From NCBI GenBank assembly GCA_021157525.1, contig JAGGWK010000079.1, positions 1 through 38,884 on the forward strand: DNA of 38,884 nt, written 5' to 3'. The stretch comes from Candidatus Cloacimonadota bacterium (GTDB lineage: Bacteria > Cloacimonadota > Cloacimonadia > Cloacimonadales > TCS61). A program made the position numbers and the translations under genes. Positions 7,798 to 38,884 of the stretch are shown here, one piece after another; within the stretch, counting starts at the first letter, position 1; every line of letters starts with the position of its first letter. The notes beneath the pieces are model-generated. The model saw only the letters and a program-made list of their open reading frames with translations, did no database searches and was not told the origin of the DNA.

Positions 7798-8880
7798 CTA
7801 CAAATACTTTTCGATCTCTGCTTTTACATCTTCGGGTGTAAAGACCAGACCGCCGACTTTGCCCATAAATTCCACGGGAACTTTGCCATTGATCGCCAGT
7901 TTCACATCTTCTACCATCTGGCCCAGATTCAATTCAAAGGTGACTACCCGTTTTACCTTGGGGCCTACCCCGGCAGCTACTTGCTGATAGGGGAAGGGCC
8001 ATACGGAGATAGGACGAACCATCCCGACATTTTTACCCTCTTCTTTCAGCTGATCGATAGCCGATTTTACGATGCGTGAGGCTGTACCATAGGCACAACA
8101 CAGAAGCTCATTGTCGTCATTGACATTGTAATTTTCCCACCGGCACTCATTTTCACGGATGAGATCGTATTTTTCACCTAAACGCAGTACGTGTTTTTCC
8201 AGTTCCTTGGGGTCGATTTCCAATGAATTGATCTCATGATGATGATGATTTGGTTCATCTTCGTTTGGACGGCAGCACCAATCCCAATGTTGTTTTTCTT
8301 TCTCCAGAATTTCTTCCGGTGTAAGAGCATCTTTAAATTCCACCGGCTCCATCATCTGGCCCAGCAATCCATCGGCCAAAATCATTACCGGGTTACGATA
8401 TTTATCCGCCAGGTCAAAGGCCAGAGAAGCCATGTCGGCAAATTCCTGAACCGAATTGGGAGCAAGGCAGATCACATAATAATCACCATGACCGCCACCA
8501 CGGGTTGCCTGGAAATAATCGCCCTGAGCAGGCTGAATATCACCCAATCCCGGGCCGCCACGGGCCACATTTACGATAACCGCAGGAAGCTGTGCCCCTG
8601 CAATATAGGAAATCCCTTCCTGCTTCAGCGAGATTCCTGGTGAAGACGACGAGGTCATTACCCTGCGGCCACAACCTGCAGCGCCATACACCATGTTTAT
8701 GGCAGCAACTTCACTCTCTGCCTGCACAAATACGCCATCGGCTTTTGGCATCATCTTTGCCATGTACTCGATTAACTCGCTTTGAGGCGTAATGGGATAC
8801 GCAAAATAAAGCCGGCAGCCTGCACGAATCGCAGCTTCTGCAATAGCTTCATTGCCTTTCATCAATACTTTCTTGCCCAT
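7798..8880 (-). CDS. vorB: 2-oxoacid:ferredoxin oxidoreductase, alpha subunit (VorB-like)
   Basis: The 360-aa alpha subunit holds the pyrimidine-binding domain and the substrate-side domain. The opening GNEAIAEAAIRAGC...YFAYPITPQSELIEYM is the conserved start of VorB/KorA proteins. TSSSSPGISLKQEGISY is the usual active-site neighbourhood, and the C-terminal transketolase-like domain (about 245-360) includes RPISVWPFP. It favours 3-methyl-2-oxobutanoate oxidoreductase, but 2-oxoglutarate or other 2-oxoacids remain possible. A run of four histidines (PNHHHHEIN, about 217) in the linker is unusual and could bind metal, or be neutral. The gene starts 13 nt after the ferredoxin gene. Confidence 0.85.
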   Translation of the reverse strand: MGKKVLMKGNEAIAEAAIRAGCRLYFAYPITPQSELIEYMAKMMPKADGVFVQAESEVAAINMVYGAAGCGRRVMTSSSSPGISLKQEGISYIAGAQLPAVIVNVARGGPGLGDIQPAQGDYFQATRGGGHGDYYVICLAPNSVQEFADMASLAFDLADKYRNPVMILADGLLGQMMEPVEFKDALTPEEILEKEKQHWDWCCRPNEDEPNHHHHEINSLEIDPKELEKHVLRLGEKYDLIRENECRWENYNVNDDNELLCCAYGTASRIVKSAIDQLKEEGKNVGMVRPISVWPFPYQQVAAGVGPKVKRVVTFELNLGQMVEDVKLAINGKVPVEFMGKVGGLVFTPEDVKAEIEKYL

Positions 8881-9097: not shown

Positions 9098-9387
9098 AAT
9101 CTACTCCTTCATTTTTATTCTAACTTTTTTTAAAAAAACCGGTGCCACTCTATTTTGTCAACCACAAACTCACGACACTTTGGGTGCCGATTGGTTTTTG
9201 CCCTGTGCCATGTCGCTTTCCCAGCCGTAATCTCTTACATGACATAGTGTAGCGGTTTTTCTGCCGCACCTTAATCTAGGATGCAGCTGCGGTAAAAATA
9301 GTTCGCCCTTCCACTCCCCCATTTGTTGTTGTTTTGGTAGGATGCCAGACGCCATGGCCGACAAATTTCTCTCTTTTTATCAGCCCC
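9098..9387. other. Long leader between comEC and the oxidoreductase operon
   Basis: These 290 nt hold no convincing gene. On the minus strand GTCATGT and ACATGGC (9237-9243, 9207-9213) can form a 7-bp stem with one wobble, enclosing a smaller GCT/AAGC-type hairpin. A CCGCA/TGCGG stem lies around 9270-9295. I match no known riboswitch. The comEC terminator may also be here. Confidence 0.4.
9133..9161 (-). promoter_or_regulatory. Possible promoter of the oxidoreductase operon
   Basis: A perfect TTGACA lies on the minus strand at 9156-9161, about 60 nt before the ferredoxin ATG. The -10 region 17-19 nt on is only T-rich (TTTTTT/TTTTTA), so the call is weak. Confidence 0.35.
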
Positions 9388-11682
9388 TTACTCTCGGGTT
9401 GTCGGTTTTGCCTGGGACTTTTCAAAGATGATGCATCCATCTGTGCCGGTGATGTAACAGGGCACTCCCGCCTGTGCATAACGCCGCATGGTGGCTGGAT
9501 GGGGAAAGGAAAAGCGATTATGCCGGGAGGTGGAGACAATGGCCACTTCGGGAGATGTCCCTTGGATAAAGGCCATTGTGGACGAGGTTTTGCTGCCATG
9601 ATGTCCTACCTTTAAAACATCGCAGTTGAGCATCTTAGGATACCGTGATAACAGATGTTCTTCCACCTCTTCCTCGGCATCACCACAAAATAAAAAGACG
9701 GTAGATTGCAGCACAACCCGCACCACGATGGATGCATTATTTATTTTTGGATGGTTGTAGCCAGCGTCAGGATGCAGCACTTTCAGCCGTAGGTCGCCTA
9801 CCACAATCGTGGTGGTATCTGTTACGGTGGTTACTTCAGCGTTTTCTTCGACAATGGTTCGCTGGATCCGGGGCCAACAGGAGCGGGTTTTAAATTCATC
9901 CGTCACGGCTACCCGCTGGATATTCAGCTCCTGAGCCAAAGCATCAAAGCCTCCAAAATGGTCGTTATGCCCATGAGTGAGAATCACCAGATCGAGGTTT
10001 GTGATGCGTTGCCGGATAAGAAATGGCAATATCGTGCGGGTTGCGTGGCCAGGTTCATCTTCCACCGGGCCGGTATCTATCAGCACAGCTGTTTCTCCCT
10101 GCTGAATCAGCGCACAATCCCCCAGTCCACAATCAAAAAAAACTACCCGCTCATGTTTGCTGGGAACCATGTAAGGCAGCGCCACCACCGCTACCAGAGC
10201 CAGGACCACTCCTATCAACATTGCACGGTGACGCCTTTTTTGCAGCACTCCGCCCAAAATTAACAAACCAAAAAGCACTATCACCTGCATCCCGGATGCA
10301 AACAGTGGCTTCCAGCAAAAAGGCATCCCGGCACACAGTGCCACCCAACGGTTAAGCACCTGATGAACCACCAGAAACACCGGATAATACAGCTGATACA
10401 GCGGCGGCGGAACTGCCAGGCAAATCACGCTGAGCACCAGTAGCAGGCTAAAAAGCGGGATTGCCAGCATGTTGGCAATGATGCCGTTGAGATTGAATTG
10501 ATAAAAATAGTGCATCGTGATAGGTGACAAATAGAGGGAAACCCAGAAGCTCACTCCCACGATGCCAATCAGATTGTTGGCAGACTTTTTGGCCGCCAGT
10601 TTCAGGCCATTGTCACTTTTTGTAATGCGACACGGCCGTATCCTGGGCAAAAAGAAAAGCAATGTTGCCACGGCAATAAAAGACATCTGCAATCCCACAC
10701 TGTAGATATCTTCCGGTCGCAAAATAGTGATAACCAGAAAGGCGGCCGCCAGGATGTTTGGTGCCGATACTTTGCGGGAAAAGAGACTTGCCAGTAGATA
10801 CAAACTCAGCATTGTGGTGGCACGGAACACCGAAGGAATGCCGTTACACAGCAGGCAATACAGCATCAAAAGGGCTATGGTAAGAAGCTTACGAAACGTG
10901 CGCTGCGGCAGAATAGACGTGATTCCGGTGATGATGAGAAACAGCACTCCCACATGCAACCCGCTGATAGCCAACAGATGGCTGAGCCCCGCTTGGGTAA
11001 AGAGGGTCCTGGTATCCCCCAGCTCGTCTTTGCATCCCAGCAAAACAGCGGAAATGAGAGGTGCATCCTCGCCAAAACGTTGCCGGATACGGCGAAGCAT
11101 CCACCGACGAAGATCGATGATACTGCGCTGTAACGAAAAACCTGACGCCGGTTGTACCGTTACGGCAGATCGGGGATATCCTCGGGCAAAAATTCCGCGC
11201 CGTCCATACCATTTTTGCCAATTCATCATCCCGGGATTTCCCGGTGGCCGAATGGCTGAAAGTTGCATAATGCAGCTCACCCTGTCACCATAGTGTAAAC
11301 CCGGCTTAGTGGTAGAAAAAAGCGCAGCACCAGACACCGCTACACCACACACCGTAAGTTGGTTAATGCGGGTAAGCCACCGGCCATCCCGCAAAACCAC
11401 TTCTCCGGAAATGGTGCCGGAGATGGGCTGCAAAATCTCTTCCTTTGCAGTGAACAACGCAGTAACATGCCGACCGGGCAATTGGCGATTTAATGAAATA
11501 TGAAGGGCTGCCAAAGCAACAATTGCCACCAATATGGCGCCACTTCGCAGCGACCGCTTCAGCCATCCTGCACCGAGAGCTGCCACCAGCAGGAAAAACC
11601 AGATGACGGTGGGTTGTTGTGAGGAAACCAGCAGTCCGCCGAGCCAGCATACTGCACAAAAAATCAAAGGAAGAGGAGACAT
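9388..11682 (-). CDS. comEC: ComEC/Rec2-type DNA uptake channel
   Basis: ComEC forms the inner-membrane channel that passes single-stranded DNA into the cell during natural transformation. The 764 aa contain N-terminal membrane segments and a DUF4131-type soluble region (about 1-190), the Competence domain with HLLAISGLHVG (about 235-245) and many membrane helices (to about 505), and a C-terminal metallo-beta-lactamase domain with THGHNDHFGG (about 569-578) and KVGHHGSKTS, thought to act as the nuclease. Length and order match full ComEC proteins. It starts 21 nt after dxr behind GAGGAGG and is the last gene of the long minus-strand run. No other competence gene is visible. Confidence 0.93.
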   Translation of the reverse strand: MSPLPLIFCAVCWLGGLLVSSQQPTVIWFFLLVAALGAGWLKRSLRSGAILVAIVALAALHISLNRQLPGRHVTALFTAKEEILQPISGTISGEVVLRDGRWLTRINQLTVCGVAVSGAALFSTTKPGLHYGDRVSCIMQLSAIRPPGNPGMMNWQKWYGRRGIFARGYPRSAVTVQPASGFSLQRSIIDLRRWMLRRIRQRFGEDAPLISAVLLGCKDELGDTRTLFTQAGLSHLLAISGLHVGVLFLIITGITSILPQRTFRKLLTIALLMLYCLLCNGIPSVFRATTMLSLYLLASLFSRKVSAPNILAAAFLVITILRPEDIYSVGLQMSFIAVATLLFFLPRIRPCRITKSDNGLKLAAKKSANNLIGIVGVSFWVSLYLSPITMHYFYQFNLNGIIANMLAIPLFSLLLVLSVICLAVPPPLYQLYYPVFLVVHQVLNRWVALCAGMPFCWKPLFASGMQVIVLFGLLILGGVLQKRRHRAMLIGVVLALVAVVALPYMVPSKHERVVFFDCGLGDCALIQQGETAVLIDTGPVEDEPGHATRTILPFLIRQRITNLDLVILTHGHNDHFGGFDALAQELNIQRVAVTDEFKTRSCWPRIQRTIVEENAEVTTVTDTTTIVVGDLRLKVLHPDAGYNHPKINNASIVVRVVLQSTVFLFCGDAEEEVEEHLLSRYPKMLNCDVLKVGHHGSKTSSTMAFIQGTSPEVAIVSTSRHNRFSFPHPATMRRYAQAGVPCYITGTDGCIIFEKSQAKPTTRE

Positions 11683-36948: not shown

Positions 36949-37566
36949 TTATTCGTTATCCTCAACTTCTTCTACAGCATCAGAACTGTCTAAGTAATCG
37001 AGTCTTTTCTCAATATCTTTTACCGGTGAAACAATGATGAAAATTGTTCTACCTTCAGACTTTGGACGTGAATCAATTTCCACGAGATCTTTCAGATCTT
37101 CCATCAGGCGTTCGAGAAGGTTAAAGCCGATATCTTTGTGAGCAAGCTGGCGTCCACGGAATCGTACCGTGAATTTTACCTTATTGTGATTCTTGAGGAA
37201 CTTCATGGCGTTTGTCTTTTTGAAATTGTAGTCATGCTCTTCTGTATTGGGACCAAACTTAACTTCCTTGGTCTGCACGATATGCTGCTTCTTGCGGGAT
37301 TCCCGCATTTTCCGCTCTTTTTGATAGTGATATTGACCAAAATCCATGATTTTACAGACGGGTGGGACAGCGTTTGGGGATATCTCCACCAAATCCAATT
37401 CAGCTCGTTCTGCCTTCGACAATGCTTCCGCAAAGGACACAACGCCTACCTGCTTACCATCTGCGCCGATCAGGCGAACCTTATCCGCTGTGATCTGCCG
37501 ATTGATTCGTTCCTTCGGAACATCCGGCTTTCTTTTTGTCTTGCTTTTCCTACTTCTCCAAGCCAA
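36949..37566 (-). CDS. infC: Translation initiation factor IF-3
   Basis: 205 aa with N-terminal ERINRQITADKVRLIGADG, linker and C-terminal FTVRFRGRQLAHKDIGFNLL domains. IF-3 stabilises free 30S subunits and rejects poor start codons. The start is TTG at 37566, four bases after AAGGAGG; there is no ATG ahead of it in frame. E. coli infC likewise uses a rare start (AUU), through which IF-3 limits its own synthesis, so TTG may serve the same purpose. The C-terminal tail is acidic (SSDAVEEVEDNE). It is the first gene of infC-rpmI-rplT-pheST. Confidence 0.95.
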   Translation of the reverse strand: MAWRSRKSKTKRKPDVPKERINRQITADKVRLIGADGKQVGVVSFAEALSKAERAELDLVEISPNAVPPVCKIMDFGQYHYQKERKMRESRKKQHIVQTKEVKFGPNTEEHDYNFKKTNAMKFLKNHNKVKFTVRFRGRQLAHKDIGFNLLERLMEDLKDLVEIDSRPKSEGRTIFIIVSPVKDIEKRLDYLDSSDAVEEVEDNE

Positions 37567-37675: not shown

Positions 37676-37960
37676 TAGAAGCGGGATGCTTCTTTTCTCC
37701 ATTTCTTACAATCACTCCCCAAAATCCCTACCGCCCTCATACCGTCAAGTTTTTTGTTTTTAGCACGATAGAGATAAATATCCCATATCAAAAGACAGCA
37801 TCACCAATCGACAAAACCCGCTGATAGAGCAGAAAGATGACACTACAAAAGAAAACATAATAATCGACTTAAATAGATTAATGTAAAAAATCCTTGCCAA
37901 TATTTTCAGGGATTTACATTTCTGATGTCAAATTATCCCGAGCACACTATGGAGGTGATG

Positions 37961-38196
37961 ATGATACCAAATCATCCTAAAAATCGTGTTGCATTCATGG
38001 TTCTGATACTGACCTTCTCAGGAGCAAGTATCTGGAGTTTAGTTCGTCACTATCGCAATTGTACACCGATTCTATCTGTTGAGTCCAAAGTGATATCACG
38101 CCCGGATTGTTCAATCTGGCGCCAAAGGCATCAGGAATAGAGACCCAGAACCTGTGCAGTTTCTTTGGCGAATTCAATTCTACTAACTGGGGCTAA
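37961..38196 (+). pseudogene. Frameshifted single-core relative of the downstream repeat protein
   Basis: GGAGG at 37951-37955 serves the ATG at 37961. The first frame reads a leader, MIPNHPKNRVAFMVLILTFS and GASIWS, then CTPILS before it goes astray and stops at 38140. Shifting back by one base at about 38080 gives VQSDITPGLFN, then NLCSFFGEFNSTNWG and a TAA at 38194. The parts match the neighbour at 38242: leader NLVLFLV...SAISISS, QSDITP at the same place, and the core CGIFGDIKPMDWD. A single-base deletion near 38075-38085 explains it; a sequencing error or programmed shift are alternatives. The core here ends the protein, one residue after Trp. Confidence 0.7.
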
Positions 38197-38241
38197 ATGT
38201 TAAAAAAAAACAAAAAAACAAGCTAAAAAAAGGAGATTATC

Positions 38242-38884
38242 ATGAAAACAAATTTAGTGCTTTTTCTCGTAGCCGCCCTTATCCTGTCCGCTATAAGCAT
38301 CTCATCGATGCTCAACACCTCAAACTCAGCTGACGTCGCTTCCCAATGCCGCATCCAGAGTGACATCACTCCCGCCAATTTTGATGCAATAATTCTTCCC
38401 GACGAATCTAAGGACAGCGAAATCTGTGGCATCTTCGGAGATATCAAGCCTATGGATTGGGACGAGTGGTTAGCAAAAAAAGCAGCCTCTACTACCGAAA
38501 GCCTTACCAGCAACCCCGTCTGTGGCATCTTCGGCGATATCAAACCTATGGATTGGGACGACTGGTTTGAAGGCAACGACCCAACCACCCCGGAAACCAT
38601 CACCAGCAACCCTGTTTGCGGCATCTTCGGCGATATCAAACCTATGGATTGGGATGAATGGTTCGCAAAAAAAGCAGCCTCTACTACCGAAAGCCTTACC
38701 AGCAACCCCGTCTGCGGCATCTTCGGCGATATCAAACCTATGGATTGGGACGAGTGGTTAGCAAAAAAAGCAGCCTCTACTACCGAGAGCATCACCAGCA
38801 ACCCCGTTTGCGGCATCTTCGGCGATATCAAACCTATGGATTGGGACGACTGGTTTGAAGGCAACGACCCAACCACTCCGGAAA
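38242..38884 (+). CDS. Secreted multi-repeat peptide or protein, partial (runs off the window)
   Basis: AAGGAG lies 6 nt before the ATG. At least 214 aa are visible with no stop. Residues 1-22 are a signal- or leader-like segment (MKTNLVLFLVAALILSAISI), followed by a spacer with QCRIQSDITP. From Cys62 an exact 32-residue repeat begins: Cys62, 94, 126, 158, 190. Every unit holds CGIFGDIKPMDWD, then E or D, then W, followed by a 17-residue linker of one of two kinds ending TSNPV. No known family is recognised. Possibilities: multi-core precursor peptide, secreted repeat protein, or surface protein. CGIFG resembles the N-terminus of class II glutamine amidotransferases, but the repetition and absence of that fold argue against it. 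Confidence 0.75.
   Translation, partial: MKTNLVLFLVAALILSAISISSMLNTSNSADVASQCRIQSDITPANFDAIILPDESKDSEICGIFGDIKPMDWDEWLAKKAASTTESLTSNPVCGIFGDIKPMDWDDWFEGNDPTTPETITSNPVCGIFGDIKPMDWDEWFAKKAASTTESLTSNPVCGIFGDIKPMDWDEWLAKKAASTTESITSNPVCGIFGDIKPMDWDDWFEGNDPTTPE
38425..38884 (+). repeat. 96-nt tandem coding repeat, at least five units
   Basis: Units start at 38425, 38521, 38617, 38713 and 38809 (the Cys codon), the last cut by the window end. Core codons are nearly identical even at silent positions (GGCATCTTCGGCGATATCAA), which suggests recent duplication. Linkers are of type A (AKKAASTTESLTSNPV, units 1, 3, 4) and type B (EGNDPTTPETITSNPV, units 2 and 5). Confidence 0.95.

Follow-up and report, generated by a model that had tools for sequence, protein, structure and literature searches.

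A candidate peptide-signalling locus with repeated cores and a seven-helix membrane protein in uncultured Cloacimonadota

The window analysed here, a stretch of 38,884 nucleotides from a Candidatus Cloacimonadota bacterium (contig JAGGWK010000079.1 of assembly GCA_021157525.1), ends inside a gene (38,242–38,884, forward strand) predicted to encode an exported precursor that carries several near-identical copies of a short peptide core. Homologs of this gene lie next to, and occur together with, genes for a seven-transmembrane (7TM) protein and for a PAS-domain protein whose output domain differs between genomes. The explanation favoured here, with a probability of about 0.6, is that the gene encodes an exported peptide ligand, often multi-core, that would be sensed by the dedicated 7TM receptor feeding a cyclic di-GMP (c-di-GMP) or phosphorelay output. 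This reading, as a signal and its receptor, is adopted because the conserved neighbour is a 7TM protein together with a PAS-HD-GYP or histidine kinase protein. The broader proposal, put at slightly less than an even chance, is that the locus represents an undescribed pheromone system of diderm uncultured Cloacimonadota, with precursors resembling that of alpha-factor, a free-standing seven-helix receptor family unlike known ones, a swappable HD-GYP/histidine kinase output and ligand–receptor specificity groups that close relatives exchange as a cassette. All the sequences considered are metagenome-assembled.

The repeat-containing gene at the contig end

The open reading frame (ORF) begins with an ATG located 7 bp beyond an AGGAG resembling a ribosome-binding site (38,231–38,235), and its 214 codons reach the contig end without a stop. 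A preliminary description, made from the letters of the window alone, had presented it as a possible multi-core peptide precursor with a leader-like N-terminus, and the leader is borne out: AlphaFold2 (AF2) predicts a confident helix at residues 2–28 (38,245–38,325; predicted local distance difference test score, pLDDT, of 93–95 for the block), which may be a signal sequence or a membrane anchor, and a hydrophobic N-terminus is present in every homolog. The remainder of the protein is mostly of low confidence and modelled as disordered, as would be expected of a precursor or flexible ligand more than of a folded surface domain. The helix is followed by motif A, CRIQSDITPANF (38,347–38,382); the SDITP segment singled out in the preliminary description does exist, but it belongs to this motif, a degenerate first copy of the core equivalent to the motif A of the family (C.AQGDFMP.PF).

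The array proper was delimited by Tandem Repeats Finder at 38,423–38,855 (period 96 bp, 4.5 copies, score 640). It contains five copies of core B: CGIFGDIKPMDWDEW in copies 1 (38,425–38,469), 3 (38,617–38,661) and 4 (38,713–38,757), and CGIFGDIKPMDWDDW in copies 2 (38,521–38,565) and 5 (38,809–38,853), the linker of the last being cut by the contig end. The exact tandem repeats reported previously are thus real, with a core, CGIFGDIKPMDWD[E/D]W, that is identical in all five units save at one E/D position, but only four of the units have the full 32 residues, the fifth being cut at 25. The linkers are of two kinds, AKKAASTTES[LI]TSNPV and EGNDPTTPETITSNPV, and are more variable than the core, as had also been noted. 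Pairwise codon comparisons, which are counts among copies and hence not independent, gave 20 synonymous and six non-synonymous differences for the five cores, all six at the E/D position, versus 17 synonymous and 55 non-synonymous differences for the linkers. As changes in the core are mostly synonymous and the reverse holds for the linkers, the core is under purifying selection, and its uniformity is more than the result of a recent duplication. The gene is indeed open at the end of the window, as previously described, but the window is itself an entire contig (G000:C23) of the 2.2-Mb genome, and the continuation is found on another contig, C3. The assembly broke within the array, and five is therefore the number of copies up to the contig end only.

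Conservation of the peptide family in Cloacimonadota

Homologs of the peptide were found in Cloacimonadota only, in about 30 genomes, in searches of relatives and named genomes; the receptor alignment served as the query for the genome collection, and the named relatives at the peptide locus are all Cloacimonadota. The family proteins are small (mostly 85–200 aa, with most homologs below 100 aa and carrying a single core B) and share a layout consisting of an N-terminal hydrophobic helix, motif A, a spacer, one to six copies of motif B, and an acidic tail or acidic linkers, the acidic tails consisting of 48% D/E. Motif B has the form CSAQGD[IV][KR]P.PW, most commonly C-S-A-Q-G-D-I-K-P-x-P-W. 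Mean pairwise identity among 31 proteins is 0.68 for motif A and 0.57 for motif B, versus 0.23 for the leader and 0.18 for both the spacer and the tail; the repeats thus do not vary freely in homologs, and the G and P of motif B are invariant. The core of the window is a member of this family, and among its most diverged. No repeat, anchor or surface-repeat family in Pfam or NCBIfam matched the peptide above curated cut-offs.

The layout of a leader, a conserved core and rapidly changing spacers therefore stands as the preliminary description had it. The conservation of the cysteine, taken there as a possible sign of modification or binding, is not strict across the family: array copies in two genera begin ASAQGD, with Ala in place of Cys. 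The Trp of the core is replaced elsewhere in the family by F, L, Y or I. A signal-peptidase-like [AVTLIS]x[AGS] at positions −5/−3 from the Cys of motif A is present in 20 of the 31 proteins, far from the hydrophobic core, and is only suggestive of cleavage by signal peptidase ahead of that motif. Loci often contain at least two adjacent peptide genes. Many independent metagenome contigs stop at or near peptide genes (L055, L059, L061–L064 and L072, at their 5' ends), leaving array lengths uncertain; the arrays and strain variation probably conceal longer versions from short-read assemblies.

The peptide, 7TM and PAS genes as a unit

The locus has the same order in most genomes of family f1: infC-rpmI-rplT-pheS-pheT, which are divergent, then the peptide gene or genes, a membrane protein of about 220 aa (the 7TM protein), the PAS protein, a barrel-like protein of about 680 aa and hydrogenase-type subunits. 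In family f13, which belongs to another order of the same class, the flanking genes differ and only the genes for the peptide, the membrane protein and the PAS protein remain adjacent, which indicates that the trio is the functional unit. In both families, the 7TM gene shares about 31 bp with the PAS gene. In the source genome, the 7TM gene is truncated at the end of the 10.5-kb contig C3 and present there from about residue 62; it is followed by the genes for a PAS-HD-GYP protein of 395 aa and for the barrel-like protein, and by hydrogenase-type genes.

Among 125 Cloacimonadota genomes, 31 contain the receptor and 30 contain the peptide; 28 have both, three the receptor only and two the peptide only (Fisher p = 3e-22, the related genomes not being independent). 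The exceptions are mostly due to contig edges, the contigs of G012, G103 and G024 ending at the locus, and in G118 the receptor is a fragment of only 32 residues. In G124, the 7TM gene is broken by three stops (L133, 7838–8467) and no peptide gene is detectable, an apparent joint loss of receptor and peptide.

The neighbours at about 30 syntenic loci are housekeeping genes, the 7TM gene, the PAS-HD-GYP or histidine kinase gene, and genes for outer-membrane-barrel-like proteins and hydrogenase-like subunits. Maturases, proteases, ABC transporters and radical SAM enzymes had been named in the preliminary description as possible companions of the precursor; gene maps and Pfam revealed no recognisable radical SAM enzyme, cyclase or other maturase, dedicated protease or ABC exporter at any of these loci, although an unlinked enzyme is possible.

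Candidate receptor and exchangeable output

The AF2 model of the membrane protein has seven helices (pLDDT 88; predicted TM-score, pTM, 0.87). For this protein family, Pfam gave no match better than chance, and NCBIfam and the sequences of the PDB gave none. Structure comparison with Foldseek gave a best E value of 0.022 and TM-scores of about 0.4–0.6 for most of the matches listed, many of them rhodopsins and G protein-coupled receptors (GPCRs); this weak likeness would be a generic seven-helix resemblance rather than membership of either group. The C-terminal half is strongly conserved, and the N-terminal half was less conserved in all 21 pairs compared. The invariant columns contain no Cys, and a sole invariant His in helix 6. 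The absence of a Pfam match and of an invariant Cys also led to the rejection of an AgrB reading of the 7TM protein.

The PAS partner has a constant part, with one membrane helix, a coiled coil and a PAS domain, and an output domain that varies. Pfam identified HD-GYP in the source genome and many others, and HisKA_2/HATPase in several f1 and f13 genomes; in one further genome, the output is a HisKA-like kinase by sequence reading. The HD-GYP partner carries the signature HHExxDGSGYP. Examples of the swapped outputs (HD-GYP, HisKA_2 and HisKA-type) are found at L028 10502–11770, L129 5615–7312, L131 917–3427 and L132 3574–4782. A constant input with exchanged outputs is what would be expected of a sensor.

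Fine-scale mosaics at the core and the receptor

Two versions of the locus occur in a single genome, G030. At the DNA level they are about 93–98% identical in the spacer of peptide a and the leader of peptide b, versus about 70% in core B; in the receptor, identity is 55–65% for the N-terminal half and mostly 90–95% for the C-terminal half. Synonymous divergence is 0.17–0.19 in the flanks versus 0.74–0.93 over receptor residues 1–120. As relaxed constraint alone would leave synonymous divergence unraised, the divergent block has an older history than its flanks, as is the case for alleles that were exchanged or kept over long periods. In one version, core CSMQGDICPDPW occurs in both peptide genes, and in the other version both have CSMQGDIMPKGW; the paralogous peptides of one locus thus have an identical core B even though their leaders differ. 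The two versions were also considered as two separate loci, but only one kinase gene and one barrel gene were found in this genome (81% complete), making strain alleles more probable.

The independent pair G032/G034 has the same pattern, with a proportion of synonymous differences (pS) that reaches 0.43 for core B in peptide b and 0.33 over receptor residues 1–95, against 0.02–0.08 in infC, peptide a, the receptor from residue 110 onwards and the PAS-HD-GYP gene. In the negative control, G023/G013, core B is the same and the receptor peak is absent. A shared hot spot of divergence at core B and the N-terminal half of the receptor, between conserved flanks, is therefore seen at a fine scale in two pairs of loci, a pattern that would favour specificity between cells over a ligand that stays on the producing cell.

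Proposed mechanism and alternatives

In the proposed mechanism, the N-terminal helix would carry the chain across the inner membrane, and the remainder of the precursor would be an unstructured acidic chain that bears motif A together with a type-specific core B, in one copy or more. This core, CGIFGDIKPMDW in the source genome, might be exposed in place or freed by a putative protease. The adjacent 7TM protein would recognise it, chiefly through its N-terminal half if the mosaics are a guide, and the conserved C-terminal half may relay the signal to the translationally coupled PAS protein, as suggested by the gene overlap and the conservation. In the source genome, the output domain is an HD-GYP of the c-di-GMP phosphodiesterase type, whereas other genomes have a HisKA_2 or HisKA histidine kinase; judging from the identity of these domains, the outcome would be a change in c-di-GMP or in a phosphorelay. 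Tandem repetition would raise the dose of peptide per precursor, and divergent pairs of core and receptor could act like pherotypes.

Several observations weigh against this mechanism. Repetition is dispensable, as core B occurs only once in most genomes, and the loci offer no recognisable candidate for the protease or exporter. The cell is evidently diderm, as the window encodes LpxC/LpxA-type enzymes, and the passage of a peptide through its outer membrane is left unexplained by the model. Across the phylogeny, the distance between core B sequences is not significantly related to that between receptor N-terminal halves once the C-terminal half is accounted for (partial Mantel r = 0.15, p = 0.11), and the case for co-variation consequently rests on the two fine-scale mosaics. 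G006 and G020 have the same core B with receptor N-terminal halves only 54% identical, and the N-terminal half of the source genome's own receptor is absent from the assembly.

The same linkage and co-variation would be predicted if the small protein were a fixed co-receptor: a subunit of the 7TM/PAS sensor, anchored in the membrane and periplasmic, with core repeats that bind the 7TM protein, an external ligand or a metal. The lack of a strict signal-peptidase motif after the N-terminal helix in 11 of the 31 proteins is in keeping with such an anchor, and the acidic tails could bind cations. However, a stoichiometric subunit would hardly be expected to come as tandem paralogs sharing the same core, or as arrays with as many as six copies; disorder is predicted for the chain, and mosaics at the population level are typical of signals; the fixed subunit is thus considered unlikely. 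Polymorphic toxin/immunity pairs yield similar mosaics and have a similar gene order, with a small exported peptide followed by a membrane protein, and the repeats could accordingly be imagined as a small secreted toxin, with the 7TM protein as its cognate immunity protein. This is judged improbable, given that a third gene, for a PAS-HD-GYP or PAS-histidine kinase protein, overlaps the 7TM gene in both orders, that the conserved C-terminal half and the swapped outputs fit a receptor, that the locus contains no known bacteriocin family or exporter, and that the motif is acidic and strongly conserved.

Two further possibilities are given very little weight. The leader and repeated core, with Cys and Trp conserved in the cores of the window, are reminiscent of a ribosomally synthesized and post-translationally modified peptide (RiPP), the cores of which would be modified, for example at Cys or Trp, into a natural product. 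The multi-core layout of the preliminary description is supported, but RiPP-style maturation is not: neither residue is retained throughout the family, and no maturase, cyclase, protease or transporter is recognisable at any of the roughly 30 loci. Tandem repeats are also common among surface proteins, but a surface or adhesive repeat protein, or a relaxed repetitive protein with no role in signalling, accords poorly with the lack of a Pfam or NCBIfam repeat family, the small size and single core B of most homologs, the strict linkage to a sensor and the purifying selection on the core.

Comparison with known signalling systems

The agr systems of staphylococci and other Firmicutes pair a short Cys-containing peptide, acidic in its tail, with a polytopic receptor that falls into polymorphic specificity groups. 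The Cloacimonadota locus resembles AgrD/AgrC in its Cys-containing peptide with an acidic tail, its polytopic candidate receptor and its specificity-group pattern. However, no AgrB-like protease/endopeptidase was detected with Pfam, the Cys that would be required for a thiolactone is not invariant (ASAQGD array copies occur in several genomes), and the peptide and receptor are unrelated in sequence to those of agr. In the ComQXPA system of Bacillus, as here, a small precursor gene adjoins a gene for a membrane sensor, and the signal part and the N-terminal part of the receptor are variable. ComX varies most in its signal part, ComP is substantially variable in its N-terminal membrane domain, communication between different pherotypes is poor, and a census found com-like loci in Firmicutes only (PMC4008528). 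The locus described here differs in having a separate 7TM receptor and no adjacent ComQ-like prenyltransferase (gene maps and Pfam), in its often HD-GYP output, in its diderm phylum and in a precursor that repeats the core. By analogy, it would work like the ComX/ComP and agr specificity-group systems, but it is a member of neither, as no ComQ, AgrB-type protein, invariant array Cys or sequence relation was found.

Sensing of a peptide by a polytopic membrane domain, as proposed here, also recalls the ComCDE system of streptococci (competence-stimulating peptide/ComD), in which the sensing domain of ComD has six segments and three extracellular loops (PMC4873836); unlike ComCDE, the present locus has no nearby transporter, and different polypeptides carry the sensor and the output domain. 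The precursors of yeast alpha-factor and the fungal Kex2-processed repeat proteins consist of a signal sequence and tandem peptides separated by spacers (PMC7329392). The Cloacimonadota proteins have the same arrangement of tandem cores between spacers after a possible N-terminal signal sequence, but they are bacterial, their spacers are acidic and devoid of dibasic Kex2 sites, and they have no known protease. The third gene is itself a PAS sensor of the HD-GYP/HisKA_2 kind, by Pfam and HHExxDGSGYP, and differs from others in that its input is provided by a separate overlapping 7TM gene and a peptide gene. As in pherotype systems, a putative signal precursor is linked to a polytopic candidate receptor with an output domain (gene order, co-occurrence and AF2).

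No system of this kind in Cloacimonadota, and no quorum-sensing signal of this phylum by title or abstract, was described in the limited collection of literature searched. Polymorphic ligand/receptor peptide signalling is best known from Firmicutes, and a system unrelated in sequence in an uncultured diderm phylum would, if confirmed, imply that specificity groups arose independently. It would also put a name to a new receptor family for testing, and synthetic core peptides would offer a way to study how Cloacimonadota detect members of their own kind. The proposal is directly testable, as a synthetic peptide of 12–15 residues can serve as the candidate ligand.

Other features of the locus and the window

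The synteny anchor of the locus, infC (IF-3), lies at 36,949–37,566 on the reverse strand of the window as a divergent neighbour (Pfam), in the same place as in most f1 loci. Between it and the precursor gene, at 37,925–38,196 on the forward strand, three-frame reading revealed a decayed, frameshifted tandem paralog, with the leader in one frame and motif A (with an in-frame TGA) and a different core, CSFFGEFNSTNW, in another; its match to the family is weak (E = 0.002, with two stops). The conserved barrel-like protein of about 680 aa downstream from the PAS protein (L047 6815–8863; L026 7654–9729) has no Pfam or NCBIfam match, and a comparison of two near-identical loci revealed two hypervariable blocks in it (L026, about 8639–8780 and 9185–9611), perhaps corresponding to surface loops. 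At 535–1956, the window encodes a protein with a C-terminal sorting domain of the FlgD_ig/Por_Secre_tail type, as in type IX-like secretion.
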